From Salinicola peritrichatus (GTDB lineage Bacteria; Pseudomonadota; Gammaproteobacteria; Pseudomonadales; Halomonadaceae), in assembly GCF_003206715.1 (NCBI RefSeq), contig NZ_PZJU01000029.1, forward strand, positions 4,894-45,445: a stretch of DNA of 40,552 nt, in the 5' to 3' direction. The notes under the pieces were generated by a model that worked only from the letters and a program-made list of their open reading frames with translations, ran no database searches and was not told the origin of the DNA. This document shows, piece by piece, positions 10,382 to 31,494 of the stretch. Position 1 is the first letter of the stretch. Every line of letters starts with the position of its first letter. Both the position numbers and the translations under genes were made by a program.

Positions 10382-10418
10382 TGGTGCGACAATCTGACCA
10401 CTTTCGTGGTGATCTTGA

Positions 10419-10447
10419 GGCAACCCCGGGTCGGGGTTGCCTTTTTT
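10419..10447 (+). terminator. Rho-independent terminator of the RND operon
   Basis: A perfect 10-bp stem GGCAACCCCG / CGGGGTTGCC with a 3-nt loop (GGT) is followed directly by six T residues at 10442-10447. It starts 38 bp after the permease stop codon. It separates the efflux operon from the glycogen/trehalose operon. Confidence 0.93.
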
Positions 10448-10629: not shown

Positions 10630-10672
10630 TTAACATCAGTTATGGCGGCTGTATCCTGTCCGAGCACAGGAT
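10630..10672 (+). promoter_or_regulatory. Candidate promoter and overlapping dyad for the glg/tre operon
   Basis: A sigma70-like pair, TTAACA (10630-10635) and TATCCT (10652-10657), is separated by 16 bp. A 7-bp dyad ATCCTGT-CCGAGC-ACAGGAT (10653-10659/10666-10672) overlaps the -10 box and the expected start site, as an operator would. This is the only candidate I see in the 279 bp between the terminator and glgA. The matches to consensus are moderate, so the assignment is tentative. Confidence 0.35.
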
Positions 10673-10726: not shown

Positions 10727-12328
10727 ATGACGTATGCCGCGGTCCAGGGAAGACAGGTTCATACCACCGAGAAACGCGGTGGACGTGATCATTTCGTTGC
10801 CGCGCCGGGTTTGTCGCGGCGAGATGCGGATAGCGTGCTGCCCCGCCTGAGGCCCGCCGCACCGTCGATTCGGCGGCGGGTGCTGTTCGTGACCACTGAA
10901 ATTGCCGACTTCATCAAGGCCGGTGGGCTGGGAGACGTCTCCGCTGCACTGCCGCGCGCCCTCAAACCCAATTACGACGTTCGGGTGCTGATGCCCGGTT
11001 ATCGCCAATTACTGACGGCGGGACGTCCCATCGTCAGTGTGGCCAAGTTGCCGGCGCGGTATGATCTGCCCGCCTGCGAGATTGGGCGTCTTCTCTGCGA
11101 GGATGGCCTGATTGTCTACGTCGTGCTCTGTCCGGAGCTCTACGACCGGGATGGTAACGCCTACGGTGACGAACTGGGGGTGGGCTGGCCCGACAACGAT
11201 ATCCGCTTTGCGCGTCTGGCGATGGCGGCCGCCGAGATCGTCAATGACGCGACCCTGCTCGACTGGCAGGTCGATCTGCTGCATCTCAACGACTGGGCGA
11301 CCGGGCTGGCAGCCGGTTATATGCGCTGGTTGGGGCGGCGCTACGTGCCGTCGGTCTATACCATCCATAACCTGGCTTATCAGGGGGTGTTCCCCGCCGA
11401 GCGAATGACGGCCCTCGGCATTCCTCCGTCGGCATTCCAAATTGACGGTGTCGAATTTCACGGCCAGCTCTCCTTCATGAAAGCCGGTCTCTCCTATGCC
11501 TCCCATATCACTACGGTAAGCAACAATTACGCCGACGAGATCACCACGCCGGCTTTCGGTTGCGGCCTCGAGGGGCTGCTCAAGAGGCGTGCTCTCGAGG
11601 GGCGTCTGAGTGGCTTGCTCAACGGCATCGATGACCGCTGGGACCCGCGCAACGATCCCCATCTGGCGCCGAATTTCGGTATCAACGATTGGCATGGCAA
11701 GCGCGCCAACACGCAACGGGTGCGGCGAATGTTCGGCCTCGATCCCAGCAGCGGTCCGCTGTTTGCCGTGGTGTCGCGGCTGGTCGCCCAAAAGGGGCTC
11801 GATCTCACCGCCGAGGTTGCCGAAACCATCGTTCACGCCGGTGGGCAGCTGGTGGTCATCGGCCGGGGCGAATATGCGATCGAGCAATCCCTGGTCGAGA
11901 TGGCGGCTCGCTATCCGGGGCATGTGGGGGTGAATATCGGCTTCGACGAGGGGGAAGCGCGCCAGATCTATGCCGGCAGCGATTTCCTGCTGATGCCTTC
12001 GCGCTTCGAGCCGTGCGGGCTCAGCCAGCTTTACGCCCAGCGCTTCGGCTCGCTGCCGGTGGCGCATCGTACCGGTGGCCTGGCGGATACCATTCAGGAC
12101 GGCATCAACGGCTTGCTATTCGACGACATGAGTCTCGATAGCTATCGCGCCACCGTGCTGAGAGCCTTCGATCTCTTTCATGCCACGGACCTGTTTTACG
12201 CCATGCGACGGGCGGCCATGGCGGGACGTTTGCACTGGCGTCAGGCGGTCATACCCTATCGCCGGCTTTATGCGGACCTACTAACGGAGACGACGATCCG
12301 GGCTGGCGATGTCGTCGAATCACGATGA
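10727..12328 (+). CDS. glgA: Glycogen (starch) synthase, GT5
   Basis: GlgA transfers glucose from ADP-glucose to the growing alpha-1,4-glucan. The ADP-glucose-binding motif KAGGLGDV is at residues 64-71, and the C-terminal nucleotide-binding segment FEPCGLSQLYAQRFGSLPVA with HRTGGLADTI is intact. At 533 residues it exceeds the usual ~480 because of a ~50-residue N-terminal extension rich in Arg and Gly before RRRVLFVTTEIADF. ATG 10727 has a good ribosome binding site (AGGGGG, spacing 6), so the extension appears real. It is the first gene of the operon and overlaps the next gene by 4 bp (ATGA). No glgC is present in the window, so ADP-glucose must be made by a gene elsewhere. Confidence 0.95.
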   Translation: MTYAAVQGRQVHTTEKRGGRDHFVAAPGLSRRDADSVLPRLRPAAPSIRRRVLFVTTEIADFIKAGGLGDVSAALPRALKPNYDVRVLMPGYRQLLTAGRPIVSVAKLPARYDLPACEIGRLLCEDGLIVYVVLCPELYDRDGNAYGDELGVGWPDNDIRFARLAMAAAEIVNDATLLDWQVDLLHLNDWATGLAAGYMRWLGRRYVPSVYTIHNLAYQGVFPAERMTALGIPPSAFQIDGVEFHGQLSFMKAGLSYASHITTVSNNYADEITTPAFGCGLEGLLKRRALEGRLSGLLNGIDDRWDPRNDPHLAPNFGINDWHGKRANTQRVRRMFGLDPSSGPLFAVVSRLVAQKGLDLTAEVAETIVHAGGQLVVIGRGEYAIEQSLVEMAARYPGHVGVNIGFDEGEARQIYAGSDFLLMPSRFEPCGLSQLYAQRFGSLPVAHRTGGLADTIQDGINGLLFDDMSLDSYRATVLRAFDLFHATDLFYAMRRAAMAGRLHWRQAVIPYRRLYADLLTETTIRAGDVVESR

Positions 12329-13671
12329 ACGCGCCGCAGGCCGCTGCCAACCGTCCGCTGTCCAAGGCATGGCAACCGCCGGGTCGGGTAAGCCTGGACG
12401 GCCTCCGGCGGATGTTCTCCATGGAGGCCGCGGCGATGTCGAGCGCGATGCCGGGAGACAGTGACGCGGATGGCGGACGCACCTGGTCATGGGATGACGG
12501 TGACTGGATGCGGGCGCGCGACGCACGCCATACCGGGGAAATGCCGCTGTCGCTCTACCGGCTCGATGCCGCCGACTGGTTTCACTCCCGGTTCACCCAG
12601 CCATTGGACTGGAACCAGCTGGCCCAGGAACTCGTGCCCTATGTCGCCGATCTGGGCTTCACCCATATCGCGCTCGATGACGCGTTGCTCGCGCAGCCCT
12701 TCGCCGTTATCTGTCGGTTCGTCGAGACCTGCCATGTCGCGGGTGTCGGCGTCGTGGTCGCGGCCCATGCACGGCGGGCCGCCACCGATCCGTCGCTGAT
12801 CGACTGCTGCGGTCGTTGCCATATCGATGGTATCGAAGAGCACAATGATAGCGGTACTCCGGTCCGGTGCCGGCTGTTCGTCAATGGTGACCTCGACACA
12901 GCGGTGGTGCTCTCCTGCCGTCCGCGCTGGAATGAGATGTATCCGCGCTATCTCGCCTCGTCACCGGCGGAGCGCTCCCTGATCCATGCGGACTGGGTTC
13001 ATGCATTGACACCGGTCGAGACGGACCGGGGCGTGCTCGATCTCATGCCTCGCGGGCTGGCGGCGATCGGGCAGTGGCGGTTGCCGGTTGACGGCGATGG
13101 CTGGCAGCGATTCGCGGCGCTGCGGGCCTTGCTCGCCCTCATGTGGGCACTGCCGGGCGACAAATGGCTGGCGATGGGGATCGAACTCGGCCAGGTTCTG
13201 GCCGAGCCGTTCGAGGAGTCGATGCGCTGGCCGCTGCTGTTCGAGAGCCAGCACGCCGGCCTGTTGCGGCAGGTCGCCGATCTCAACCGACTCTACGTCA
13301 ACGAGCCGGCGCTGCAAGTTCGCGACGATGAACGTCACGGCTTCCAGTGGCTGGTCGCAGACGACAGCGACAATAGCGTGGTGGTCTTCATACGCCTCGC
13401 CGAAAGCGGTCACGCCAGTCTCATCTGTATCAGCAACTTCCAGGCCCGGGTCCACCACGGGTATCGCCTGGGCGTTCCGGCAGCGGGACGTTGGCGCGAA
13501 ATCTTCAACAGCGACAGCGTCTTCTACGCGGGCAGCAACGTCGGCAACGGGCATAGCGTGATGACCGCGCCGGTGCCCAGTCATGCCTGGCCTCAGTCGC
13601 TGACGCTGACGGTGCCGCCCATGGCCACGCTCTTTCTGCGCCACGAAGTCTGGTACGGGGATTCACCATGA
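12325..13671 (+). CDS. Catalytically dead GlgB-like protein (degenerate branching-enzyme paralogue)
   Basis: A 448-residue protein that aligns by eye with the GlgB at 23263-25524 but is about 300 residues shorter. Matching blocks in order (this protein / GlgB) are: WDDGDWMRARDARHTG / [31 protein letters not shown] / [35 protein letters not shown] / [38 protein letters not shown] / [24 protein letters not shown] / SANSVF; and the C-terminal beta domain YRLGVPAAGRWREIFNSDS / [19 protein letters not shown]. The N-terminal CBM48-like region is missing. The catalytic motifs of GH13 (DGLRVDA nucleophile, AEES acid/base, SHDE) have no counterpart, so it should not be an active branching enzyme. The frame is intact with 4-bp overlaps on both sides, suggesting a maintained gene. 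A scaffold or glucan-binding role is inference. Confidence 0.8.
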   Translation: MNAPQAAANRPLSKAWQPPGRVSLDGLRRMFSMEAAAMSSAMPGDSDADGGRTWSWDDGDWMRARDARHTGEMPLSLYRLDAADWFHSRFTQPLDWNQLAQELVPYVADLGFTHIALDDALLAQPFAVICRFVETCHVAGVGVVVAAHARRAATDPSLIDCCGRCHIDGIEEHNDSGTPVRCRLFVNGDLDTAVVLSCRPRWNEMYPRYLASSPAERSLIHADWVHALTPVETDRGVLDLMPRGLAAIGQWRLPVDGDGWQRFAALRALLALMWALPGDKWLAMGIELGQVLAEPFEESMRWPLLFESQHAGLLRQVADLNRLYVNEPALQVRDDERHGFQWLVADDSDNSVVVFIRLAESGHASLICISNFQARVHHGYRLGVPAAGRWREIFNSDSVFYAGSNVGNGHSVMTAPVPSHAWPQSLTLTVPPMATLFLRHEVWYGDSP

Positions 13672-15572
13672 GCGCTTCCCGGACGCCGCCCGAGAACCGC
13701 CCCGGCGAGCCCGGCTGCGTGCCGAGCCATGCTCCTCGGTATGGCGCCTCACTCGGGGCGGATGGGCGTACCCGCTTCCGTTTGTGGGCGCCGAGTGCCG
13801 AGCGTGTCGATCTGGAGTGCGAGGGCATGCCCGCGCAGGCCATGATGCGCGCCGACGATGGGGATTTCGTCGCTGAGATCGCCTGTCCCGGTGGTACCGC
13901 GTACCGCTACCGGGTTTTCGTCGCGGGCGACGAGCAGGGGCTGGCGGTGCCGGATCCCGCATCGAAGGCGTTGCAGGGCGGCGTCGACGGCAATTCCCTG
14001 GTGGTCGATCCCCAACGCTACGTCTGGCGCCATGAAGCGTGGCGCGGGCGGCCCTGGATCGAGACGGTCGTCTACGAAGTCCACCTGGGTGCCTGCGGCG
14101 GCATCGGGGGGCTGATCCGGCGACTGCCGGCGCTCGTCGAATTGGGTATCACCGCCATCGAACTGATGCCGATCGCCGAATGTCCCGGTCGTCGCAACTG
14201 GGGCTACGACGGCGTTCAGCCCTATGCCGTTGCGTCCTATTACGGCGCGCCGGACGAGCTCAAGGCACTCATCGACACGGTGCACGGCCACGGCCTGATG
14301 ATCTTCCTCGACGTGGTCTACAACCACTTCGGCCCCGACGGCAATTTCCTGCCCCGCTATGCCGAGGCTTTCTTTCGCGACGACATCGAGACGCCATGGG
14401 GCGGGGCAATCGATTTCCGCCGGCCGCAGGTGCGTCGCTTCTTCATCGACAATGCCCTGATGTGGCTGCTCGAATACCGTTTCGATGGGCTGCGCTTCGA
14501 TGCCGTACACGCGATCAGCGAGCGCGACTTCCTGGTCGAGCTGGGGCAGACCCTGCGCGAGCGGGTGGGAAGCTGGCGCCATTGCCACCTGATTCTGGAG
14601 AACGAACACAATCAAGCCAGCCTGCTGGGTCCGGCTGGCTTCGATGCGCAGTGGGCGGACGATTGGCACAACGTGATGCACGTGCTGCTGACCGGCGAGC
14701 GCGACGGCTACTACGGCGACTTCGTCGAACGGGCGACCGACAAGCTGGCCACGGTGTTGGCCGAAGGATTCATTTTCCAGGGCCAGCCGTCGCGCAAGGG
14801 CGAGGCGCGCGGCGAGCCGAGCGGCCATCTGCCACCGACCGCCTTCGTCAATTTCCTGCAGAACCACGACCAGATCGGCAATCGCGCGCTGGGCGAGCGG
14901 CTGAGTCGACTCGCCGATCCCGAGGCGCTGGATGCCGCCACGCTGCTGCTGCTGCTGTCGCCCAACATTCCGCTGCTGTTCATGGGCGAGGAGTGGGGAT
15001 CGAAGCGGCCATTCCTGTTCTTCACCGATCATCGCGACGAGCTTGCCGACGCCGTACGCGAAGGGCGCCGGCGCGAATTCGCCGAGTTCGGTGCGTTCAA
15101 GGATCCGGCCCAGCGCGAACGGATTCCCGATCCCAACGCGCCGGCGACCTTCGAGGCCTCGGTCCTCGACGACGCGGAAGCCGCCGCGCCACGGCATCGG
15201 ACGCACCGCGAGCGTTTTCGCCAGTGGCTGACGCTCCGGCACGAGCAGATCGTGCCCCGGTTGGCCGGTGCGCGTGCCTTGCGGGCCGTGGTGCTGGCCG
15301 ACAGCGCCGTCGAGGCCCGCTGGTCCCTGGGCGACGGCGCGACCTTGAACATCGCGATCAACCTCTCCGACGACGCGGTGCCCCTGACGGTATCCGAGCG
15401 GACCACGTTTCAGACCGAACTTAGGGTCGGTTCCCGCGACGGCGTGCTCGAGGCACTGGCGGCCGGCGAGTTGCCGCCCCGCAGCGCCGCCGTCTGGATC
15501 ACGCCCCTATCCATGTCTCCGTCTCCGACCGTGACCTCCACCACAGCCACAGCGGGAGCGACGCCACGATGA
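13668..15572 (+). CDS. treZ: Malto-oligosyltrehalose trehalohydrolase
   Basis: TreZ (GH13) releases trehalose from maltooligosyl-trehalose made by TreY. The 634-residue protein has an N-terminal CBM48-like domain (GASLGADGRTRFRLWAPSAE). The catalytic barrel follows, with GLRFDAVHAI (nucleophile Asp278), ILENEHNQ (acid/base Glu311) and NFLQNHDQIGNRALGERL carrying the transition-state His-Asp. MFMGEE-type substrate-site residues appear as LLFMGEEWGS. It is cytoplasmic, with no signal peptide. It overlaps its upstream and downstream neighbours by 4 bp each. The C-terminal ~20 residues (SPTVTSTTATAGA) are a Ser/Thr-rich tail unlike the rest. Confidence 0.95.
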   Translation: MSASRTPPENRPGEPGCVPSHAPRYGASLGADGRTRFRLWAPSAERVDLECEGMPAQAMMRADDGDFVAEIACPGGTAYRYRVFVAGDEQGLAVPDPASKALQGGVDGNSLVVDPQRYVWRHEAWRGRPWIETVVYEVHLGACGGIGGLIRRLPALVELGITAIELMPIAECPGRRNWGYDGVQPYAVASYYGAPDELKALIDTVHGHGLMIFLDVVYNHFGPDGNFLPRYAEAFFRDDIETPWGGAIDFRRPQVRRFFIDNALMWLLEYRFDGLRFDAVHAISERDFLVELGQTLRERVGSWRHCHLILENEHNQASLLGPAGFDAQWADDWHNVMHVLLTGERDGYYGDFVERATDKLATVLAEGFIFQGQPSRKGEARGEPSGHLPPTAFVNFLQNHDQIGNRALGERLSRLADPEALDAATLLLLLSPNIPLLFMGEEWGSKRPFLFFTDHRDELADAVREGRRREFAEFGAFKDPAQRERIPDPNAPATFEASVLDDAEAAAPRHRTHRERFRQWLTLRHEQIVPRLAGARALRAVVLADSAVEARWSLGDGATLNIAINLSDDAVPLTVSERTTFQTELRVGSRDGVLEALAAGELPPRSAAVWITPLSMSPSPTVTSTTATAGATPR

Positions 15573-17728
15573 GCGGCTCTGCCATGACCGAAGAAGGGAT
15601 TGCCGTGCTGCAGGAGCTGGCCGAAGCCGTCGGCCTGCTGTTGGAATGGACGGGGAGCGACGGCCAGCCAAAGACACTGCCCGTCGAGCGTCAGCGTGCC
15701 ATGCTCGAACGGCTCGGCTGGCCGGCCGCCGATGAGGCCCAGGCCGCGGAAAGCCTGGCGCGATGGCGTGAGCGTGCCGGACCCTATACATGCCAGCAGT
15801 TGCCGCCGCTGCTGATCGCCGACCGGGACATCGCCTACTCGATACCGGCCGAGGGGGCGGCTGGCATGAGTTTCACGCTGCACCTCGAAAATGGCGAGAC
15901 GCTGGATGGCCATCTCGATGACTGGGGTTGCCTGCCGCCGCTCGAGACCTGCGGTTACCATAGCCTGACGCTGCTGAGCGAGCGCGGCGACGAGTGCGCC
16001 ACCCGCACGCTCGCCGTCGCGCCCGAGCGCTGCTTTTCGCCGTCCGACCTCGGCGGCGACGGGCCGCCAGCCACCAGAGCACAATCCACCCGCCTGTGGG
16101 GCGTCTCGGCGCAGCTATACGGGCTGCGGCGCGAGGGCGACGCCGGCATCGGCGATCTCCAGGCACTCGACGAGCTGTGCCTGACGCTGGCCGAGGCGGG
16201 GGCCGATGCCGTCGCCATCAGTCCCATGCATGCCCTGTTCGGTGCCAGTCCTAAGCATTTCAGTCCCTATTCGCCATCGAGCCGCCTGTTCTACAACGTC
16301 TGGCATGCCGCGCCGGAGTGCCTGTTCGACGCCGAAACCCTCGCGCGCGCGCGGGAGCCGTTTGTGGATGCGATGGCGCTTCAGGGGCAGCAGACGCTGA
16401 TCGACTGGCCGGCCAGCGTGCGTCTCAAGCTGTCGATGCTGGAGCGTCTGTTCCTGCACGTGCAGCGAGACGACAGCGCACTGGCCTGGCGCTCCCGCTT
16501 CGTCGCCTTTCGCCGCGATGGCGGCGAAGCACTGGAGCGCCACTGCCGTTTCGAAGTGTTGCAGGCGCATGCCGACGAGATCGACTGGCGGCAATGGCCG
16601 GAGGCGTGGCGCGATCCGCATAGCGCCGAGGTCGAGGCGTTCGCCGAACAGCACCGGGAAGCGGTCACCTTCGCCGCCTTTCTGCAGTGGCTGATGGCGG
16701 CGGGGCTCGGCAACGTGCAGACCCACGCGCGGGAGGCCGGCATGAGGATCGGCCTGATCGCCGACCTTGCCGTGGGCGTCGATCCCCGCGGCAGCCAGGC
16801 CTGGAGTTTCCCGCAGGAACTATTGACGCAGTTCAGCGTCGGTGCGCCGCCCGATGCGTTCAATGCCAAAGGCCAGAACTGGGGCGTCGCCGCCTTTTCG
16901 CCGTTGGGCCTGGTGGAGTCGGGATATCGCGGTTTCCTGGCGATGCTGCGTGCCGGTTTCGCCCACGCCGGCGGCTTGCGCATCGATCATATCCTGGGAT
17001 TCTCGAGGCTGTGGCTGGTGCCGCAGGGGAAATCCGCCGAGGAAGGCGCCTATCTGCGTTATCCCCTCGACGACATGCTGCGCTTGGTCGCGCTCGAATC
17101 CTGGCGTCATCGCGCCATCGTGATCGGCGAGGATCTCGGCACCGTCGAGGACGGCCTGCGCGAGCAACTGGCCAGTCGTGGCGTGCTCGGCATGAGCGTG
17201 ATGTGGTTCGAGCGCGACGGCGAAGCGTTTCTGCCCGCCGCGCGCTGGCGGCGCGCCACGCTGGCGACCACCAGCACTCACGATCTGCCCACGGTCGCCG
17301 GCTGGTGGCGGGGAAACGACCTGCGCTGGCGTCAGCGACTCGATCTGCTGACGGCGGATGAAACGCCGGCCGGGCTCAATGAGTCGCGGCGCCGGGATCG
17401 TCGGCGCCTGGCCGAGGTCTGCGGACTGGATGTCGTTGCCGATGACGATGGCATCAGCGGCGATGCGCTCGACGTCGAGGACGTCGTCGATGCCGTGCTC
17501 GCCTTCGTCGCTTCGACGCCGACGCCGTTGGCGCTACTGCCGCTGGAGGACATTCTGGGGCTCGAGGAGCAGCCCAATCTGCCCGGTACGCTCGACGAGC
17601 ATCCCAACTGGCGCCAGCGGTTACCGATACCGGTGTCGCAACTGCTGGCGCAATCGGCCGTACGCCGGCGGCTCGAGCGAATTGCGGCCACTCGACGGGC
17701 AGCCTCGAGCTGGGGTGGCAAGTCATGA
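15569..17728 (+). CDS. malQ: 4-alpha-glucanotransferase (amylomaltase, GH77)
   Basis: MalQ transfers maltosyl/dextrinyl groups between glucans, recycling the short chains that TreY/TreZ and debranching leave behind. The protein has 719 residues, like E. coli MalQ (694). Signatures: SPMHALFGASPKHFSPYSPSS in the acceptor region, the nucleophile Asp473 in GLRIDHILGFSRLWLVP, acid/base Glu521 in VIGEDLGTV, and STHDLPTVAGWW with the third Asp. The N-terminal ~150 residues form the bacterial MalQ extension. It is coupled by ATGA to treZ. Two seven-codon open frames lie between its stop and treY. It sits between treZ and treY, the order I also recall from Pseudomonas clusters. Confidence 0.95.
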   Translation: MSGSAMTEEGIAVLQELAEAVGLLLEWTGSDGQPKTLPVERQRAMLERLGWPAADEAQAAESLARWRERAGPYTCQQLPPLLIADRDIAYSIPAEGAAGMSFTLHLENGETLDGHLDDWGCLPPLETCGYHSLTLLSERGDECATRTLAVAPERCFSPSDLGGDGPPATRAQSTRLWGVSAQLYGLRREGDAGIGDLQALDELCLTLAEAGADAVAISPMHALFGASPKHFSPYSPSSRLFYNVWHAAPECLFDAETLARAREPFVDAMALQGQQTLIDWPASVRLKLSMLERLFLHVQRDDSALAWRSRFVAFRRDGGEALERHCRFEVLQAHADEIDWRQWPEAWRDPHSAEVEAFAEQHREAVTFAAFLQWLMAAGLGNVQTHAREAGMRIGLIADLAVGVDPRGSQAWSFPQELLTQFSVGAPPDAFNAKGQNWGVAAFSPLGLVESGYRGFLAMLRAGFAHAGGLRIDHILGFSRLWLVPQGKSAEEGAYLRYPLDDMLRLVALESWRHRAIVIGEDLGTVEDGLREQLASRGVLGMSVMWFERDGEAFLPAARWRRATLATTSTHDLPTVAGWWRGNDLRWRQRLDLLTADETPAGLNESRRRDRRRLAEVCGLDVVADDDGISGDALDVEDVVDAVLAFVASTPTPLALLPLEDILGLEEQPNLPGTLDEHPNWRQRLPIPVSQLLAQSAVRRRLERIAATRRAASSWGGKS

Positions 17729-17768
17729 GTCAGGACGCACAGCCATGAGCGGAGGTGAAAGGTTGTGA
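17725..17768 (+). other. Pair of 7-codon mini-ORFs linking malQ and treY
   Basis: Three start codons fall exactly 20 bp apart: ATG 17725, ATG 17745 and GTG 17765 (treY). The first overlaps the malQ stop (ATGA). Its own frame (MSQDAQP) stops at 17746-17748, overlapping the second ATG. That frame (MSGGERL) stops at 17766-17768, overlapping the treY GTG. The sequence is certain, but function as a translational relay is conjecture. The treY Shine-Dalgarno GGAGGTG (17751-17757) lies inside the second frame. Confidence 0.3.
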
Positions 17769-20410
17769 AAGAAATCCGAGCCACCGTTCGCCTGCAATTG
17801 CACGCCGGCTTCACCTTCGACGACGCTCGCCGCCAGGTCGATTATTACGCCGCCTTGGGTGTCAGCCACTTCTACCTGTCGCCGATCCTCGCCTCGCGTC
17901 GCGGCTCCAGCCACGGCTATGACGGCGTCGATCCCACGCGCATCGATCCGGAACTCGGCGAGGAAGCGGGGCTGGAAGCGTTGGTCCAGGCCCTTCACGC
18001 CCGCGGAATGGGAATCATCGCCGATATCGTGCCCAATCACCTGGCCGTCGGTGCCGAGAATCCCTGGTGGCAGGATCTCCTCGCACGCGGCCGGGCGAGC
18101 GAATATGCCCATTGCTTCGACATCGACTGGGAGCAGCCCGGCGCCGACGGCAAGCTGTTGCTGCCGTTCCTCGGCGATCGTTACGTCCGTGTGCTCGAAA
18201 ACGGCGAGCTGAGGCTGACCTGGGAAGCCGGTGCTGGGCATTTCACGGTCGCCTACCACGAGCACCGTTTTCCCATCGATCCGGCACACAACGTGGAGAG
18301 TCTTTCGACACCGGTCTCCGCGCTGGCGCCGGCTGCCGATAGCGAAAACCCGGTCATCGCCGCGGCGATCGCACACCACGATCCCGCCACCGGCGCCGGG
18401 CGGGAGCGGCTGCACGCACTGCTCGAACGCCAGGCCTACCGGCTCGCGTATTGGCGCACCGCCAACGATGTGCTCAACTGGCGACGCTTCTTCGACATTA
18501 CCGAACTCGCCGGCGTACGGGTCGAAGACGAGAGCGTGTTCGATCTCTGCCATGCCTGCATCCTGGGGCTGGTCGAGCGCGGCTGGATCGACGGCCTGCG
18601 GATCGATCACGTCGACGGCCTGGCCGACCCCCGTGGCTACTGCCTGCGCCTGCGCTCGCGTCTGGACGCCATCGCACGGCGGTTCGACGAGCCGGTTCAC
18701 TTGCCGATCTACGTCGAGAAGATTCTCGGCGGCAACGAGGCGTTGCACGACGATTGGGGCGTCGATGGCACCACCGGCTACGAATTCCTCGACCGGGTCT
18801 CCGGCATTCAGCACGACCCCAGCGGGCGGGAGCCGCTGGCGCGGCTATGGCGGGAAGTCAGCGGTAGGACGACGGACTTCGCGACCGAGGTGCGTACCGC
18901 GCGCCGCGACATGCTGCATGGCCCGCTGACCGCCGAGTTCGAACGCTGCGTCAGCGCGCTCGAGGCCCTGGCGATGCGCGATCCGGCGACGCGGGAGTTT
19001 CGCGCGCCGGCCATTCGCCGGGTGCTAGGGGCGCTGGCGGTCGCCTATCCGGTCTATCGCAGTTACGCCGATCGCGATGGCCGCCCGCCTGCCGATGGCA
19101 AGAATTTCGCCCACGCGCTGTCGACGGCCCGGCGCGAACTCTCGGCGGCGGACGCCGACTGGCTGACCACACTGGCTGACTGGCTCGGCGATCGGGCGCC
19201 GGCCAGGTTCGACGACGCCGAATGTGCGTTGCGCTTGCGCGCCATCGCGCGGTTCCAGCAACTGACCTCGCCACTGGCGGCCAAGGCGGTGGAGGATACC
19301 GCCGGCTATCGCTCGGCCGTGCTGCTCTCGCGCAACGACGTCGGTTGCGAAGGGGCGCACTTCGCTTACCCGCCCGAACGCCTGCACGACGACAACCGCG
19401 AACGCCGGGCGCATTTCCCTCTCGGCATGCTGACCACCGCGACCCACGATCACAAGCGGGGCGAGGACGTGCGTACGCGGCTCGCGGCGATCAGCGAGCT
19501 GACGGCCGCGCTGACGCCGCAGCTGCGTGGCTGGGCGAACGACGAGCGCCTCTACGACGGTGACCGCCAACCCAGCGGCGGCGATCGACTGATGCTGCTG
19601 CAACTGATGCTGGCGGCCTGGCCCCTGGATCTCGACATCGAAAGCCGCCAGCAGCTGGATGCCTTTGCCGACCGCCTCGTCGCGTGGCAGCAAAAGGCGA
19701 TGCGCGAGGCCAAGCTGGAGAGTCACTGGCTGGCCCCGGATAGCGCCTACGAGCAGGCCGGCGAGGATGCCATCCGGCGCGCGCTGTCCGGTGACGAGAT
19801 CACCCGCGAGCTGGCGGGGGCGGCGGCGCTGCTCGATGTTCCCGGCGCGATCAACGGCCTTGCACAGACGACACTGCGCCTGTGTTCGCCCGGCATACCG
19901 GACCTCTATCAGGGAGCCGAGCTCTGGGATCAGTCGCTGGTCGACCCGGACAATCGCCGCCCCGTGGACATGGCCGTGCGTCGCGACACGCTGGCGTGCG
20001 GCGAGTCGCCCACGCTGGCGTGGCGACATTGGCGCGATGGGGCCGTCAAACAGGCGCTCATCCAGCGCTTGCTGCGGTTGCGGTACGAGCATCCACGGCT
20101 GTTCGACGAGGGGGACTACCGACCGTTGAAGGCTGTCGGCGCACGGTCGGAACATGTCCTGGCCTTCGCCCGAAGAACGCCGCAGGCCAAACTGGTGGTG
20201 GCCGTCCCGCGACTTTCACGGGCACTGTTCGCTTCGAAGACAGGGTTGCCATTGCAGTGGGGCAACACCTCGCTGGAGCTCGGGGCACTCGCGCTGCAGG
20301 GTGTCGGTGCAGCCTGGCTGACCGACCTGCCGGCGGATGAGAAAGGTGAGCTGGTTTTAGCGCGACATTTGTCGGATTTTCCTTGCGGTGTATGGGTATG
20401 GACCGCATGA
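17765..20410 (+). CDS. treY: Malto-oligosyltrehalose synthase
   Basis: TreY (GH13) isomerises the reducing-end alpha-1,4 bond of maltodextrins to alpha,alpha-1,1, giving the substrate of TreZ. It has 881 residues, within the family range. Conserved parts: RATVRLQLHAGFTFDDA at the N-terminus, HFYLSPILASRRGSSHGYD, IIADIVPNHLAV, the nucleophile Asp281 in GLRIDHVDGLADP, acid/base Glu318 in IYVEKIL, and the C-terminal SPGIPDLYQGAELWD with LVDPDNRRPVD. The start is GTG 17765, preceded by GGAGGTG at 8 nt; no ATG offers the canonical N-terminus. A 113-bp gap follows before the DUF2934 gene, the largest inside the operon. Confidence 0.95.
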   Translation: MKEIRATVRLQLHAGFTFDDARRQVDYYAALGVSHFYLSPILASRRGSSHGYDGVDPTRIDPELGEEAGLEALVQALHARGMGIIADIVPNHLAVGAENPWWQDLLARGRASEYAHCFDIDWEQPGADGKLLLPFLGDRYVRVLENGELRLTWEAGAGHFTVAYHEHRFPIDPAHNVESLSTPVSALAPAADSENPVIAAAIAHHDPATGAGRERLHALLERQAYRLAYWRTANDVLNWRRFFDITELAGVRVEDESVFDLCHACILGLVERGWIDGLRIDHVDGLADPRGYCLRLRSRLDAIARRFDEPVHLPIYVEKILGGNEALHDDWGVDGTTGYEFLDRVSGIQHDPSGREPLARLWREVSGRTTDFATEVRTARRDMLHGPLTAEFERCVSALEALAMRDPATREFRAPAIRRVLGALAVAYPVYRSYADRDGRPPADGKNFAHALSTARRELSAADADWLTTLADWLGDRAPARFDDAECALRLRAIARFQQLTSPLAAKAVEDTAGYRSAVLLSRNDVGCEGAHFAYPPERLHDDNRERRAHFPLGMLTTATHDHKRGEDVRTRLAAISELTAALTPQLRGWANDERLYDGDRQPSGGDRLMLLQLMLAAWPLDLDIESRQQLDAFADRLVAWQQKAMREAKLESHWLAPDSAYEQAGEDAIRRALSGDEITRELAGAAALLDVPGAINGLAQTTLRLCSPGIPDLYQGAELWDQSLVDPDNRRPVDMAVRRDTLACGESPTLAWRHWRDGAVKQALIQRLLRLRYEHPRLFDEGDYRPLKAVGARSEHVLAFARRTPQAKLVVAVPRLSRALFASKTGLPLQWGNTSLELGALALQGVGAAWLTDLPADEKGELVLARHLSDFPCGVWVWTA

Positions 20411-20523: not shown

Positions 20524-20979
20524 ATGATGACCAGTCGTGAACAACGCGTGCGGATGCTGGCCTATCGCATTTGGGAATCGGAAGGTTACCCCGATGGACA
20601 GGAAGGGCGTCACTGGACGATGGCGGAACGGATCGTCGAGGCCGAGAACGCTCGTGAGGAGGAACAGGAGTGGCGCGAGGCCGCCGATGAGCCGTCCCCA
20701 CTGGCGGGCGAGGAGCCAACCGCGGAACCTGACGAATTGGGCATCGACGAGCCGCGTCTGCCGCTGGACGATCCCGAGGTCGAGGCGCTGAAGGAGGAGG
20801 ACACCGGGGTCGAGGTGCATCCCAGTCCGAAGGGCGGCAAGCCGCGCCCACGCAAAAAGGCTGCCGCTGCCACGCCTCGAGCCGCGAAAGGCAGCTCGGC
20901 TACGGGTTCGGCAGCACCGAAAAAGAAGCCGACGGCCAAGGCGCGCAAGTCCGACAGTGGCGGCAAGAAATCCGAGTAG
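20524..20979 (+). CDS. DUF2934 protein with Lys/Ala-rich histone-H1-like tail
   Basis: A 151-residue protein of unknown function. Residues 3-40 are a DUF2934 domain (EQRVRMLAYRIWESEGYPDG, then HWTMAERIVEAE). An acidic, Pro/Glu-rich middle section follows (about residues 40-95). The C-terminal ~50 residues are basic and low-complexity (KGGKPRPRKKAAAATPRAAK), like the tails of histone-H1-like bacterial proteins, so it may bind nucleic acid or another polyanion. The ribosome binding site AAAGGAGG is strong. ATG 20524 and ATG 20527 are both usable. DUF2934 genes recur in glycogen/trehalose clusters between treY and glgX, as I recall from Pseudomonas, which suggests a role tied to glucan metabolism; what that is remains unknown. 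Confidence 0.85.
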   Translation: MMTSREQRVRMLAYRIWESEGYPDGQEGRHWTMAERIVEAENAREEEQEWREAADEPSPLAGEEPTAEPDELGIDEPRLPLDDPEVEALKEEDTGVEVHPSPKGGKPRPRKKAAAATPRAAKGSSATGSAAPKKKPTAKARKSDSGGKKSE

Positions 20980-21036
20980 CTGCCCTTGCGAACACGATGT
21001 CGAACCGGATGCACCCGATCTCCGAGGACAGGAAAT

Positions 21037-23229
<2,193 letters not shown>

Positions 23230-23262
23230 GTGGCCAGAATCGAAGTTCCGGGAGGAAACGGC

Positions 23263-25524
23263 ATGACCCGGGCCGATTCCCGCTCGCGGACAGCGCAGCG
23301 CCATCTCGAGACTGGCCTTGGTGCCGGCGATCTCGAGGCGCTGGCCCAAGCGACCCACGCCAATCCCTTCGCCGTGCTCGGACCGCATCGGCGCGCCGAC
23401 GGCGTCCACGAGGTCAGGGTCTTCGTGCCCGGTGCCAGCGCGGTTTCCCTGGTCGCGGCCGACAGTGACCACTTACTGGGGGAGTGTCGGGCCCAGGCGA
23501 TCGACGGCCTGTTCGTCGGCGAACTTCCCGAATCCACCGGATACCGTTTACGTATTCGCTGGCCTCGATCCCGGCAGAGTGACTCACCAAGCGAGCAGGT
23601 GGAGCAGCTCGTCGCCGATCCGTACGCCTTTCCGCTGCTGCTGGGGGAGACCGATCTCTACCTGATCGGAGAGGGCAGCCATCGGCGCCTCGGCGAGTGT
23701 CTGGGCGCGCAGGTGATGACGATCGACGGCGTCGAGGGCGTGCGCTTCGCGGTATGGGCGCCCAACGCGCAACGGGTGGCCGTGGTGGGGGATTTCAATG
23801 GCTGGGATACCCGCCGCCACGGCATGCGCTGCCGCTATCCCTCCGGCGTCTGGGAGATCTTCATTCCCGGCATCGGCGCCGGCGAGCGCTACAAGTTCGC
23901 CTTGATCGATGTCAATGGTGAGCGCTTACTCAAGGCCGACCCGGTGGCGCTATCCACCGAGCCGCCGCCACTGACCGCCTCGGTGGTCGCGGACGCGACA
24001 CCGTTCGCGTGGCACGACGAGGCGTGGATGGCACAGCGTGGCGAGCGTCATGCGGGCACGGCGCCGATCTCGATTTACGAAGTTCACGTCAGTTCCTGGC
24101 GCAAGCATGGCGGGGACGATGGTGCTCTCTATCAGTGGCGCGATCTGATCGATTCGTTGATCCCCTACGTGGTCGAGATGGGCTTCACCCATGTCGAGCT
24201 GATGCCGATCATGGAGTATCCCTTCGGCGGTTCCTGGGGCTATCAGCCGCTATCGCTGTTCGCGCCCAGCGGCCGTTTCGGCTCGCCGGCGGATTTCGCC
24301 GCCTTCGTCGACGCCTGCCACTGTGCCGGGATCGGCGTCATCCTCGACTGGGTGCCGGGCCACTTCCCATCCGACCCGCACGGCCTGGCCCGCTTCGATG
24401 GCACCGCGCTGTATGAGTACGCGCATCCCTTCGAGGGCTATCACCAGGATTGGAACACCTATATTTACAACCTGGGCCGGCGCGAGGTGCACGGCTTCAT
24501 GCTCGCCTCGGCACTGCACTGGTTGCGCGATTTCCACATCGACGGACTGCGCGTCGACGCCGTTGCCTCGATGCTCTATCGCAACTACTCGCGGCGCGAA
24601 GGGGAGTGGATTCCCAACCGGTTCGGCGGCACGGAAAACCTCGAGGCGGTCGCTTTCCTCCAGCATCTCAACCGGGTGGTGGCCGAAGAGGCCCCCGGCA
24701 GCGTGGTGATCGCCGAGGAATCGACTGCCTGGCCCGGGGTGACGGCGGCGGTCGAGCATCAGGGGCTCGGCTTCAGTTACAAGTGGAACATGGGCTGGAT
24801 GCACGACAGCTTGAGCTACATCAGCCACGATCCGCTATACCGACGTTTCCATCACGACCAGCTGACCTTCGGCCTGGTCTACGCCTTCGACGAGCGCTTC
24901 ATATTGCCGATCTCCCACGACGAGGTGGTGCATGGCAAGGGGTCGCTGCTCGACAAGATGCCCGGCGACGACCGGCAGCGATTCGCCAACCTGCGGGCCT
25001 ATCTGAGTTTCATGTGGCTGCACCCCGGCAAGAAACTGCTGTTCATGGGCTGCGAGTTCGCCCAGGGGCGCGAATGGAACCATGATCGCGAGCTCGACTG
25101 GTATCTGCTGCAATACGCGCCGCATGCCGGTATCCAGCGGTTGGTGGGCGATCTGAACGCGCTCTATCGCGAACGCCCCGAACTGCACGCGCTGGATTGC
25201 GAAGGGGCGGGATTCCGCTGGGTCATCGGCGATGACAGCGCCAATAGCGTCTTCGCCTGGTGGCGCCTGGATGCCGCCGGTCGGCGCGTGCTGGCGATCG
25301 CCAACATGACGCCTCAGCGCTTGTCCGGCTACCGCGTTGGCGTGCCGCTGGCGGGATACTGGACGGAGCGCTTCAACTCGGATTCCGAACGCTATGACGG
25401 CGACAACGTGGGCAATGGCGGTGGCCTGCCAAGCGAGCCGGTGGCCGCGCATGGCGAGCGCCAATCGCTGGTGCTGACGCTACCGCCGCTGGGGGTGCTG
25501 CTGTTGATGCCGCCCGACGCCTAG
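23263..25524 (+). CDS. glgB: 1,4-alpha-glucan branching enzyme
   Basis: GlgB cuts alpha-1,4 chains and reattaches them as alpha-1,6 branches. It has 753 residues, slightly longer than E. coli GlgB (728), with both N-terminal beta domains ([10 protein letters not shown] and [20 protein letters not shown]). Catalytic motifs are complete: [13 protein letters not shown] (nucleophile Asp432), [11 protein letters not shown] (acid/base Glu485) and [12 protein letters not shown]. The C-terminal beta domain ends in [11 protein letters not shown]. The start is ATG 23263 with GGAGGAAA in front; an upstream GTG at 23230 is in frame but directly follows the glgX stop. It is the last gene of the operon. 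Its TAG shares the palindrome CTAG with the stop of the convergent trehalase gene. A degenerate relative lies at 12325-13671. Confidence 0.96.
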
Positions 25525-27083
25525 CCGACGATCATTCCCTGGCGCTGGGCGAGCAGGGCGCGGGTCACGCCGTTGGTCCAGGCGAAGCCGTCCTGCAGCG
25601 GATATTCGCCGCCGCAGGCGAACTCGGCCCCCGGATAGAGCACGTATTTTTCGACCAGCTTGTGTTCGCGCCGGTAGAGATCGTCGACCAGCGCCAGCCA
25701 GCGCTCGGCCAGGATTTCCGCCAGATCGGTGAAGCCATAATGGCGGAAGCCCTCGATCGCCATCCATTGCAGCGGGGCCCAGCCGTTGGGATGGTCCCAC
25801 TGCTGGTTGCTGTCGTTGATCTCGGTGGTGACCAGCCCACCGGGCGCCAGCAGTCGCTGCGAGACGGTGTTGGCGACACGCTCGGCCTGGCCGGGGGAGG
25901 CCAGCTGCAGATAGAGTGGCGCCACGCAGGCGGCGGTCAGGTGAATGCTGCGATGGCCGCGCTGCCAGTCGTAGTCGTAGTAGGCGCCGCGCTCCTCGCA
26001 CCAGAGATAGCGATCGATCGCCTTGCGGCGACGCTCGGCGCGGCTCCGATAATGCCCGGCTTCGCTCGTTTCACCGACATCGGCGCAGAGCCTGGCGAGC
26101 AGAAACTCCAGGTGGTAGAGCAGGGCGTTGACTTCGATGGGGATGAAGGCGGTGGTGCGAATCGTGGTCAGATCGCGGGTGTCATCCAGCCAGCGGCCGC
26201 TGAAGTCCCAGCCGCTTTCCGCGCCGGCGCGAAGATCGCGATAGAGCTGCTCCGCCGGGCGATCCGAGCGCTGGGCCATCTCGTAGTCCTCGCGATAGGA
26301 CTCCTCGCGCGGCGTGGCGCGGTCGTCCCAATGGCGATTGAGCCAGCACTCGTCGTCGAGCCGCACGCAGCGACGGTGGGCTTCCCCCGGCGCGAGCCGC
26401 TCTTCGCCATCCATCCAGAACGCATACTCCTGCTTGAGTTGCGGAAGATAGTCGATTGCCCGGCGTTGCCCGCGCTGTTCGACCAGCGTCACCATCATCG
26501 AAAACAGCGGCGGCTGCGAGCGGCTCAGGTAGTAGCTGCGGTTGCCGTTGGGCATGTGGCCGTAGCGCGAGATCAGGTCGGCGCAGTTGTCGAGCTGCGC
26601 GCACAGCAGCCGGTCTTCGCCGCTGGCGGCCAGGCCCAGCATGGTGAAATAGGAATCCCAGTAATAGAACTCGCGGAAGCGACCGCCGGGCACGATGTAG
26701 TCGTGGGAAAGCGACAGCAGCGAGGACCATAAATGATGCTCGCGCGAGTTACGCGTCAGCACCGGCCATAGCCGATCGATATGCGTCGCCATGTCGACCC
26801 TGGGATCGGCCTCGTAGCCGCTGCAGTGGAGCGGATCTTCCGCGAAGTGGGTGTCGACGAAGGCGCGCAGGTCGAAGTCCGGCGCGTGGCGGGCCGCGTG
26901 ATAGGCCTGCACGATCTGCGCGGGCGGATACTTGGGCACGCTGTCGGCGAACGTCTTGGAATCGGCGAACAGATGCGCCAGTTCAACGGCTTCGAACAGC
27001 TCCCCAAAGCGGTCGTAAGGGGTCACGGCCGCATCGTTCAAATGAGCGTCGTCTGGTAGGACGGCCTGAGGGCTATGCGGCAT
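25521..27083 (-). CDS. treF: Cytoplasmic alpha,alpha-trehalase (GH37)
   Basis: Hydrolyses trehalose to two glucose. The 520-residue protein carries both trehalase signatures, [14 protein letters not shown] and [10 protein letters not shown]. The catalytic Asp is in [10 protein letters not shown] and the catalytic Glu in [15 protein letters not shown]. The N-terminus ([19 protein letters not shown]...[10 protein letters not shown]) resembles E. coli TreF. There is no signal peptide, so it acts on internal trehalose. It lies 26 bp downstream of the glucose dehydrogenase-like gene on the same strand and is probably co-transcribed with it. It runs convergently into glgB with no terminator between, so antisense or transcriptional interference is possible. 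Confidence 0.95.

Positions 27084-28131: not shown

Positions 28132-31494
<3,363 letters not shown>

Follow-up and report, generated by a model that had tools for sequence, protein, structure and literature searches.

A branching enzyme relative without catalytic residues, retained between glgA and treZ in Salinicola and probably assisting glucan or trehalose synthesis without catalysis

In Pseudomonas aeruginosa PAO1, GlgA is reported to make a linear glucan which TreY and TreZ convert to trehalose; the genes glgA and treZ are PA2165 and PA2164, leaving no gene number free between them (PMC8084333). The glgA operon of Salinicola peritrichatus, from a genus of salt-loving bacteria, resembles the PAO1 operon, yet holds an additional gene at this position. 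We analyzed it in a stretch of 40,552 nucleotides, called the window below (NCBI RefSeq assembly GCF_003206715.1, contig NZ_PZJU01000029.1, positions 4,894 to 45,445), where the gene order is glgA, the additional gene, treZ, malQ, treY, a DUF2934 gene, glgX and glgB, followed by a convergent trehalase gene. The additional gene encodes a relative of the glycogen branching enzyme GlgB that is stripped of the CBM48 domain and of the GH13 catalytic residues. Since the protein is homologous to enzymes whose catalytic motifs it has lost, which is part of the definition of a pseudoenzyme, we use this name for it. Comparisons with related genomes show that the pseudoenzyme descends from a second paralog, here named GlgB2, rather than from the complete branching enzyme of the operon (GlgB1). 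As it is still under selection, it probably now assists the synthesis of glucan or trehalose in a non-catalytic role.

Among described proteins, GlgB (GH13_9; Escherichia coli structures 1m7x and 4lq1) shares with the pseudoenzyme its ancestry, a core modelled as a barrel, a complete C domain and some aromatic residues of glucan sites. Unlike GlgB, the pseudoenzyme has no CBM48, no catalytic triad and no histidines of the conserved sequence regions (CSRs), and loops and, in the model, two barrel helices are lost. In Kushneria, Phytohalomonas and two other genera of this family, the same slot between glgA and treZ is occupied by GlgB2, the nearest active lineage, but GlgB2 retains all eight catalytic and CSR residues that we checked and is 734-759 amino acids (aa) long where read whole. 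Plant ISA2 is a dead GH13 glucan enzyme retained in a glucan-synthesis system; it is an isoamylase reported to bind ISA1 (PMC12510319), whereas the link of the pseudoenzyme to possible partners is gene coupling. In Waddliaceae and Criblamydiaceae a non-functional branching domain is tied to GlgA, although by gene fusion. In the Waddlia fusion the synthase is active and the branching domain silent, the loss being attributed by the authors to the GlgA extension and the pathway being deemed defective (PMC7935935). The heavy chains 4F2hc and rBAT are likewise alpha-amylase-family proteins acting as partner subunits, but of animal membrane transporters (PMC8537225).

Among the titles and beginnings of abstracts listed, with subscription journals and preprints outside the scope, none described a GlgB pseudoenzyme like this one from bacteria, nor did any in the literature on Salinicola with branching enzyme or on Halomonas with glgA or glgB. 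In the parts consulted of a review of prokaryotic glucan enzymes, the chlamydial fusion is the only inactive branching enzyme met, and the legend of an archaeal table marks unspecified inactive isoforms (PMC11046441). Plants are thus known to have noncatalytic glucan enzymes (ISA2), whereas the literature searched gave no bacterial GlgB example of this sort. Tentatively, and as far as the literature was searched, this could be the first bacterial branching-enzyme pseudoenzyme to serve as a dedicated subunit.

Pfam searches returned a single match above cut-off in the pseudoenzyme, to Alpha-amylase_C (E 2.4e-22, profile positions 1-95 of 95). The only other row at E <=10 was DUF3806 (18.6 bits, cut-off 21), and neither CBM_48 nor the Alpha-amylase catalytic domain gave a match at E up to 10. 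In NCBIfam, GlgB models match best, with scores well under their cut-offs (258.3/1270, 223.9/741 and 205.2/463.95 bits), and the GlgB equivalog cut-off is not reached. All 17 PDB sequence matches at E <=1e-20 are named branching enzyme (best E 2.1e-47). A first-pass annotation, made from the DNA alone, had aligned the protein in order with the operon's own GlgB, and the GFTH strand, the RFAALRA...MWALPG helix, the DLNRLY segment and the C domain are indeed kept, but the closest active relative proved to be GlgB2.

For a residue-level comparison, 28 dead slot proteins (16 Salinicola forms, 11 intermediates from the same family and one protein, G618, from outside it) were aligned with 40 active GlgBs. 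The latter comprise 17 slot-type enzymes and 23 GlgB1 sequences, and include the GlgB of genome G005 and three slot enzymes truncated by locus ends. Catalytic positions were set from motifs in the window's GlgB; the CSR names and the roles of nucleophile and acid/base are those we take these residues to have. The histidines of CSR-I and CSR-IV are lost in all 28 dead forms. The aligned residue is found in 1/28 for the nucleophile Asp, 3/28 for the acid/base Glu, 10/28 for the CSR-IV Asp and 7/28 for the CSR-II Arg. No dead form has a complete catalytic triad; all eight checked residues are present in 40 of the 40 active GlgBs. The dead forms have further losses in common, namely CBM48, the SWGYQ loop and the end of CSR-I. 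The earlier claim that the GH13 catalytic motifs and CBM48 are gone is thus confirmed, and no active site rebuilt from other residues is visible in the sequence.

The glgA-treZ slot was then compared across 275 genomes of the family, 78 of which carry glgA at E <=1e-40. Sixteen genomes have a full-length GlgB2 in this slot and 12 have a dead intermediate; the Salinicola form occurs in 17, with an open frame in 16 and a frameshift in one. In 32 genomes the slot is empty and treZ directly follows glgA. The remaining genome, G005, has another layout, in which glgA is followed by one glgB and treZ is absent from the stretch read. Eleven of the intermediates were read whole and measure 457-505 aa, lengths that depend on the choice of start, taken nearest the glgA stop. 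The twelfth (G145) is split over two contigs and was excluded from the residue counts and from the first tree below; this genome has two glgA matches on separate contigs (L202 on G145:C13 and L141 on G145:C36). One of 18 Salinicola genomes (G176) has neither this kind of glgA nor the pseudoenzyme gene. Dead forms occur in five genera of the family. Outside it, G618, a genome from another family of the same order, carries one of 543 aa with synteny preserved. At least this one dead form lay outside the family among the matches listed for 390 genomes from the order and 369 from the class (class E <=1e-80), both samples holding some family members; up to four candidates per genome were scored, and dead forms were recognised by score and frame length. 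Two other short frames were rejected as dead forms, one being a GlgB cut by a contig end (G363) and the other a GlgB in two frames (G296). At one and the same slot, a single family thus retains every stage from active parent through dead intermediate to minimal form, besides lineages that lack the gene, and the step from enzyme to pseudoenzyme could therefore be replayed by swaps of natural alleles.

The Salinicola forms and the intermediates form one clade (100/100) in an LG+G4 tree of 70 rows and 403 columns, for which 18 of 88 rows had been removed. The clade is recovered again at 100/100 under a C20 mixture (43 rows after removal of a further 27 of 70, 403 columns, rooted on the rest). Both trees place it next to GlgB2 and separate from GlgB1, so that descent from the operon's own GlgB1 is rejected and GlgB2 of the same slot is the parent. 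Long-branch attraction as the cause of the clade is disfavoured, short of formal exclusion, by the C20 result and the shared losses. In a midpoint-rooted TreZ+MalQ tree (57 rows given, 56 used, with 20 of the 32 genomes lacking a slot gene), the sampled GlgB2 carriers (9 rows, 100/99) stand apart from a group that contains all dead forms and all 20 of these genomes, with two to three separate gene losses inside. Read from these trees, the simplest history is that an active GlgB2 died once, shrank further in Salinicola and was lost several times elsewhere.

These placements bear on the possibility that the pseudoenzyme is a regulatory partner of GlgB1 which, as a noncatalytic paralog, sets the level of branching by forming heterodimers or competing for chains. 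ISA2, reported to be a noncatalytic paralog bound to active ISA1 (PMC12510319), would be a precedent, and GlgB1 shares the operon or cluster with the dead form wherever enough of the downstream region was read. However, the gene has its coupling to glgA and treZ, with glgB1 about 10 kb away, and its parent is GlgB2, not GlgB1. We therefore regard a partnership with GlgB1 as unlikely.

The ratio of nonsynonymous to synonymous rates (omega, dN/dS) was estimated by the pairwise Nei-Gojobori method within Salinicola, with medians from pairs with dS<1.5. The median for the pseudoenzyme is 0.266 (98 of 120 pairs); those for the other genes are 0.217 (TreZ), 0.268 (MalQ), 0.215 (TreY), 0.113 (GlgA), 0.102 (GlgX) and 0.145 (GlgB, 10 pairs). 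Pooled over five close pairs, omega of the pseudoenzyme is 0.136 (bootstrap 0.116-0.166). By segment of the same pairs it is 0.449 in the tail (residues 1-52), 0.052 in residues 53-118, 0.208 in the shrunken barrel of residues 119-210, 0.191 in residues 211-250, 0.061 in residues 251-340 and 0.073 in the C domain (341-448). Because omega is well below 1 and low in each segment of residues 53-448, these estimates indicate that purifying selection acts on the folded protein in Salinicola.

A slowly decaying relic, in which an inactive GlgB2 is on its way to the deletion already complete in other genera, would fit the absence of a slot gene from 32 of 78 glgA-bearing genomes and the two to three losses by which sampled gene-less genomes sit among dead-form lineages. 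It would also fit the mean dN of the pseudoenzyme (0.301 over all pairs), the highest of the seven genes tested, and the frameshifted copy of S. tamaricis. Against decay stand the low omega of the folded part and the 16 orthologs that remain open at a mean proportion of synonymous differences (pS) of 0.586, in 15 of which an ATGA-type overlap with glgA is available when the start nearest the glgA stop is chosen. Compared with a sister genome, S. tamaricis (G189; L117, L045) has frameshifts in the pseudoenzyme gene and in treZ, and its malQ lacks a single normal frame, whereas glgA, treY, glgX and glgB align in one frame each. Since the frames of treZ and malQ are disrupted too, sequencing error or local decay of the operon is as likely an explanation. 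A relic therefore seems improbable. Recent decay, an annotation artefact and pseudogene status are rejected by the same data, since 16 of the 17 Salinicola genomes with glgA have the gene as an open frame with conserved synteny; within the genus, orthologs are neither absent nor broken as a rule. The first-pass annotation had taken the open frame and the ATGA couplings as arguments against decay, which holds, and conservation, selection, the single dead clade and the predicted structure all support its description of a pseudoenzyme that derives from GlgB and is kept in the operon.

The structure was predicted with AlphaFold2 from an alignment of 36 rows that included active GlgBs. The model is confident and GlgB-like (mean predicted local distance difference test score, pLDDT, 82.6; predicted template modeling score, pTM, 0.84). 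We read eight modelled strands, at residues 76-80, 114-117, 142-148, 169-173, 179-185, 193-198, 236-240 and 279-283, as the putative barrel strands; the model has no helix between strands 4 and 5 or between strands 5 and 6. The C domain is modelled in full, while the tail looks disordered, with pLDDT below 50 at residues 1-25 and 37-50. The best 50 Foldseek matches listed are all branching enzymes, the bacterial ones with TM scores of 0.66-0.72 by query length. The intermediate G155 (484 aa, pTM 0.84) reaches TM 0.75-0.80 to bacterial branching enzymes and has helices at the two places where the Salinicola form has none.

A new catalytic function on the old scaffold could be imagined from the long stem branch leading to Salinicola (1.32 changes per site in the C20 tree) and from 23 invariant residues exclusive to the Salinicola forms, some of them polar (D57, D118, E134, H363, H440 and E441). 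The seven residues that are fixed across the dead group and rare in active GlgBs (L110, L196, L210, W251, L314, F372 and V406) are, however, all hydrophobic or aromatic, and the former pocket segment is the fastest-evolving within the folded part. An active site common to the dead group is rejected, there being no new invariant polar residue, and new catalysis is very improbable altogether. That the gene is a mere translational spacer coupling glgA to treZ, as the ATGA overlap at each end might suggest, can be dismissed almost entirely, because a spacer has no need of its amino acid sequence, omega is far below 1 and treZ directly follows glgA in other genera.

We consider it an even matter whether the pseudoenzyme acts as a non-catalytic glucan-binding partner in the trehalose route from GlgA, possibly through MalQ, to TreY and TreZ. 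The glgA stop and the pseudoenzyme ATG share the sequence ATGA, as do the pseudoenzyme TGA and the treZ start, and this coupling suggests that GlgA and TreZ are produced together with it. The data support a history in which an ancestral GlgB2 between glgA and treZ was stripped of CBM48 and of the GH13 active site, in the simplest case a single time. It was then retained as a pseudoenzyme by purifying selection, strongest on residues 53-118 and 251-340 of the barrel and on the C-terminal domain, and shrank further in Salinicola. Presumably co-translated with GlgA and probably placed beside it, the protein may use surface sites retained on its barrel and C domain to bind linear alpha-1,4-glucan as it grows, and may hold or pass unbranched chains to GlgA and TreY. 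Loss of catalysis with glucan contact kept is plausible, because a branching enzyme at this place would branch the linear glucan used by TreY and so oppose the route; branching for storage would be left to GlgB1. More tentatively, the dead GlgB2 could be a dedicated subunit, binding linear alpha-glucan at GlgA and directing it to trehalose via TreY/TreZ and away from branched glycogen. This would bear on an open question in Pseudomonas, how linear GlgA glucan bound for trehalose is kept apart from glucan for branching (PMC8084333). The roles suggested by the first-pass annotation (scaffold, subunit of GlgA, partner of GlgB) are still inferred.

Profile searches of the source genome found no GlgC, TreS or TIGR02093 phosphorylase above cut-off and no match to GlgE; treZ, treY and trehalase are present, in favor of the trehalose route. 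A role in the GlgE pathway is rejected, as the gene does not follow GlgE among 20 chosen genomes: within these, GlgE is absent from six gene-bearing Salinicola genomes (including the source genome and the frameshifted S. tamaricis) and present in four. The GlgE pathway seems to have been lost in part of Salinicola. The window has glgB1 immediately behind glgX, and neither TreS nor GlgE was found in the source genome. By contrast, GlgB1 is preceded by a TreS-sized frame of 888-1167 aa in L113, L119, L123-L131, L134-L137, L140 and L142; a profile confirmed its identity as TreS in G122, G150 and G190.

Putative glucan sites were placed by hand through a PDB alignment from the E. coli sugar-site residues in Table 1 of PMC10254366, with an inferred numbering offset of 116 that puts Trp or His on checked positions. 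In support of glucan contact, Trp is kept at three of these sites. W302 (site I, W586) is Trp in 28/28 dead forms and 40/40 active GlgBs, and W342 (site VI, W628) in 28/28 and 39/40. W260 (site V, W544) is Trp in 25/28 dead forms and 28/40 active GlgBs, 6 of the 17 slot-type active enzymes among them, and W251 is Trp in 27/28 dead forms and none of the 40 active GlgBs.

Several observations weigh against a glucan-binding helper of the trehalose route. W302 and W342 are no proof of binding and may be structural, because nearly all active GlgBs carry both. The dead forms do not conserve the residues that E. coli has at sites II, IX and XI, the region of sites I, II and VII is reportedly conserved in enterobacteria only (PMC10254366), and the proposed glucan binder has lost its CBM48. 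The active GlgBs in the AlphaFold2 alignment may bias the model toward the GlgB fold. A weak phosphorylase-like match in the source genome (73 bits, in a frame of 841 aa) makes another exit for the glucan possible. Finally, since 32 of the 78 glgA-bearing genomes have treZ right after glgA, the gene is not required for the trehalose route and is dispensable in the long run.

Table 1. Features of the glgA operon region, in positions of the window.
Feature	Position	Strand	Basis and remarks
GlgB2-derived pseudoenzyme	12325..13671	+	448 aa, ATG start; open reading frame (ORF), Pfam, NCBIfam, residue alignment; parentage as read from trees
N-terminal tail, residues 1-52	12325..12480	+	in place of GlgB_N and CBM48; fast-evolving, mostly low-confidence
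Stripped GH13 barrel, residues 53-340	12481..13344	+	AlphaFold2, Foldseek to GlgB
C-terminal beta domain (Alpha-amylase_C), complete, residues 342-441	13348..13647	+	Pfam PF02806
glgA, glycogen synthase	10727..12328	+	NCBIfam NF001901, 769.8 bits, above cut-off; Pfam
treZ, maltooligosyltrehalose trehalohydrolase	13668..15572	+	TIGR02402, 652.6 bits, above cut-off
malQ, 4-alpha-glucanotransferase	15569..17728	+	TIGR00217, 329.1 bits, above cut-off
treY, maltooligosyltrehalose synthase	17765..20410	+	TIGR02401, 896.5 bits, above cut-off
DUF2934 protein	20524..20979	+	Pfam PF11154, E 2.7e-13
glgX, debranching enzyme	20986..23229	+	TIGR02100, 1087 bits, above cut-off; longest ORF, real start maybe downstream
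glgB (GlgB1), complete branching enzyme of the operon	23230..25524	+	TIGR01515, 880 bits, above cut-off; catalytic residues present; Pfam GlgB_N, CBM_48, Alpha-amylase, Alpha-amylase_C
Trehalase, convergent with glgB	25521..27083	-	Pfam PF01204, E 2.1e-142
Terminator-like hairpin, upstream side of operon	10417..10443	+	such sites: 2 found, 2.0 expected by chance
Promoter-like hexamers, upstream side of glgA	10630..10657	+	9/12; such sites: 2 found, 0.9 expected by chance

No structured RNA scored above its gathering score in the window. In four loci, L125-L128 (G149, G152, G147 and G153), malQ and treY are read as a single frame of 1675-1682 aa, likely a MalQ-TreY fusion. The window also encodes a 1120-aa protein (28132-31494, forward strand) in which an ammonium transporter is joined to PAS, GGDEF and EAL domains (Pfam E 3.2e-111, 1e-22, 5.8e-39 and 3.2e-63, respectively).

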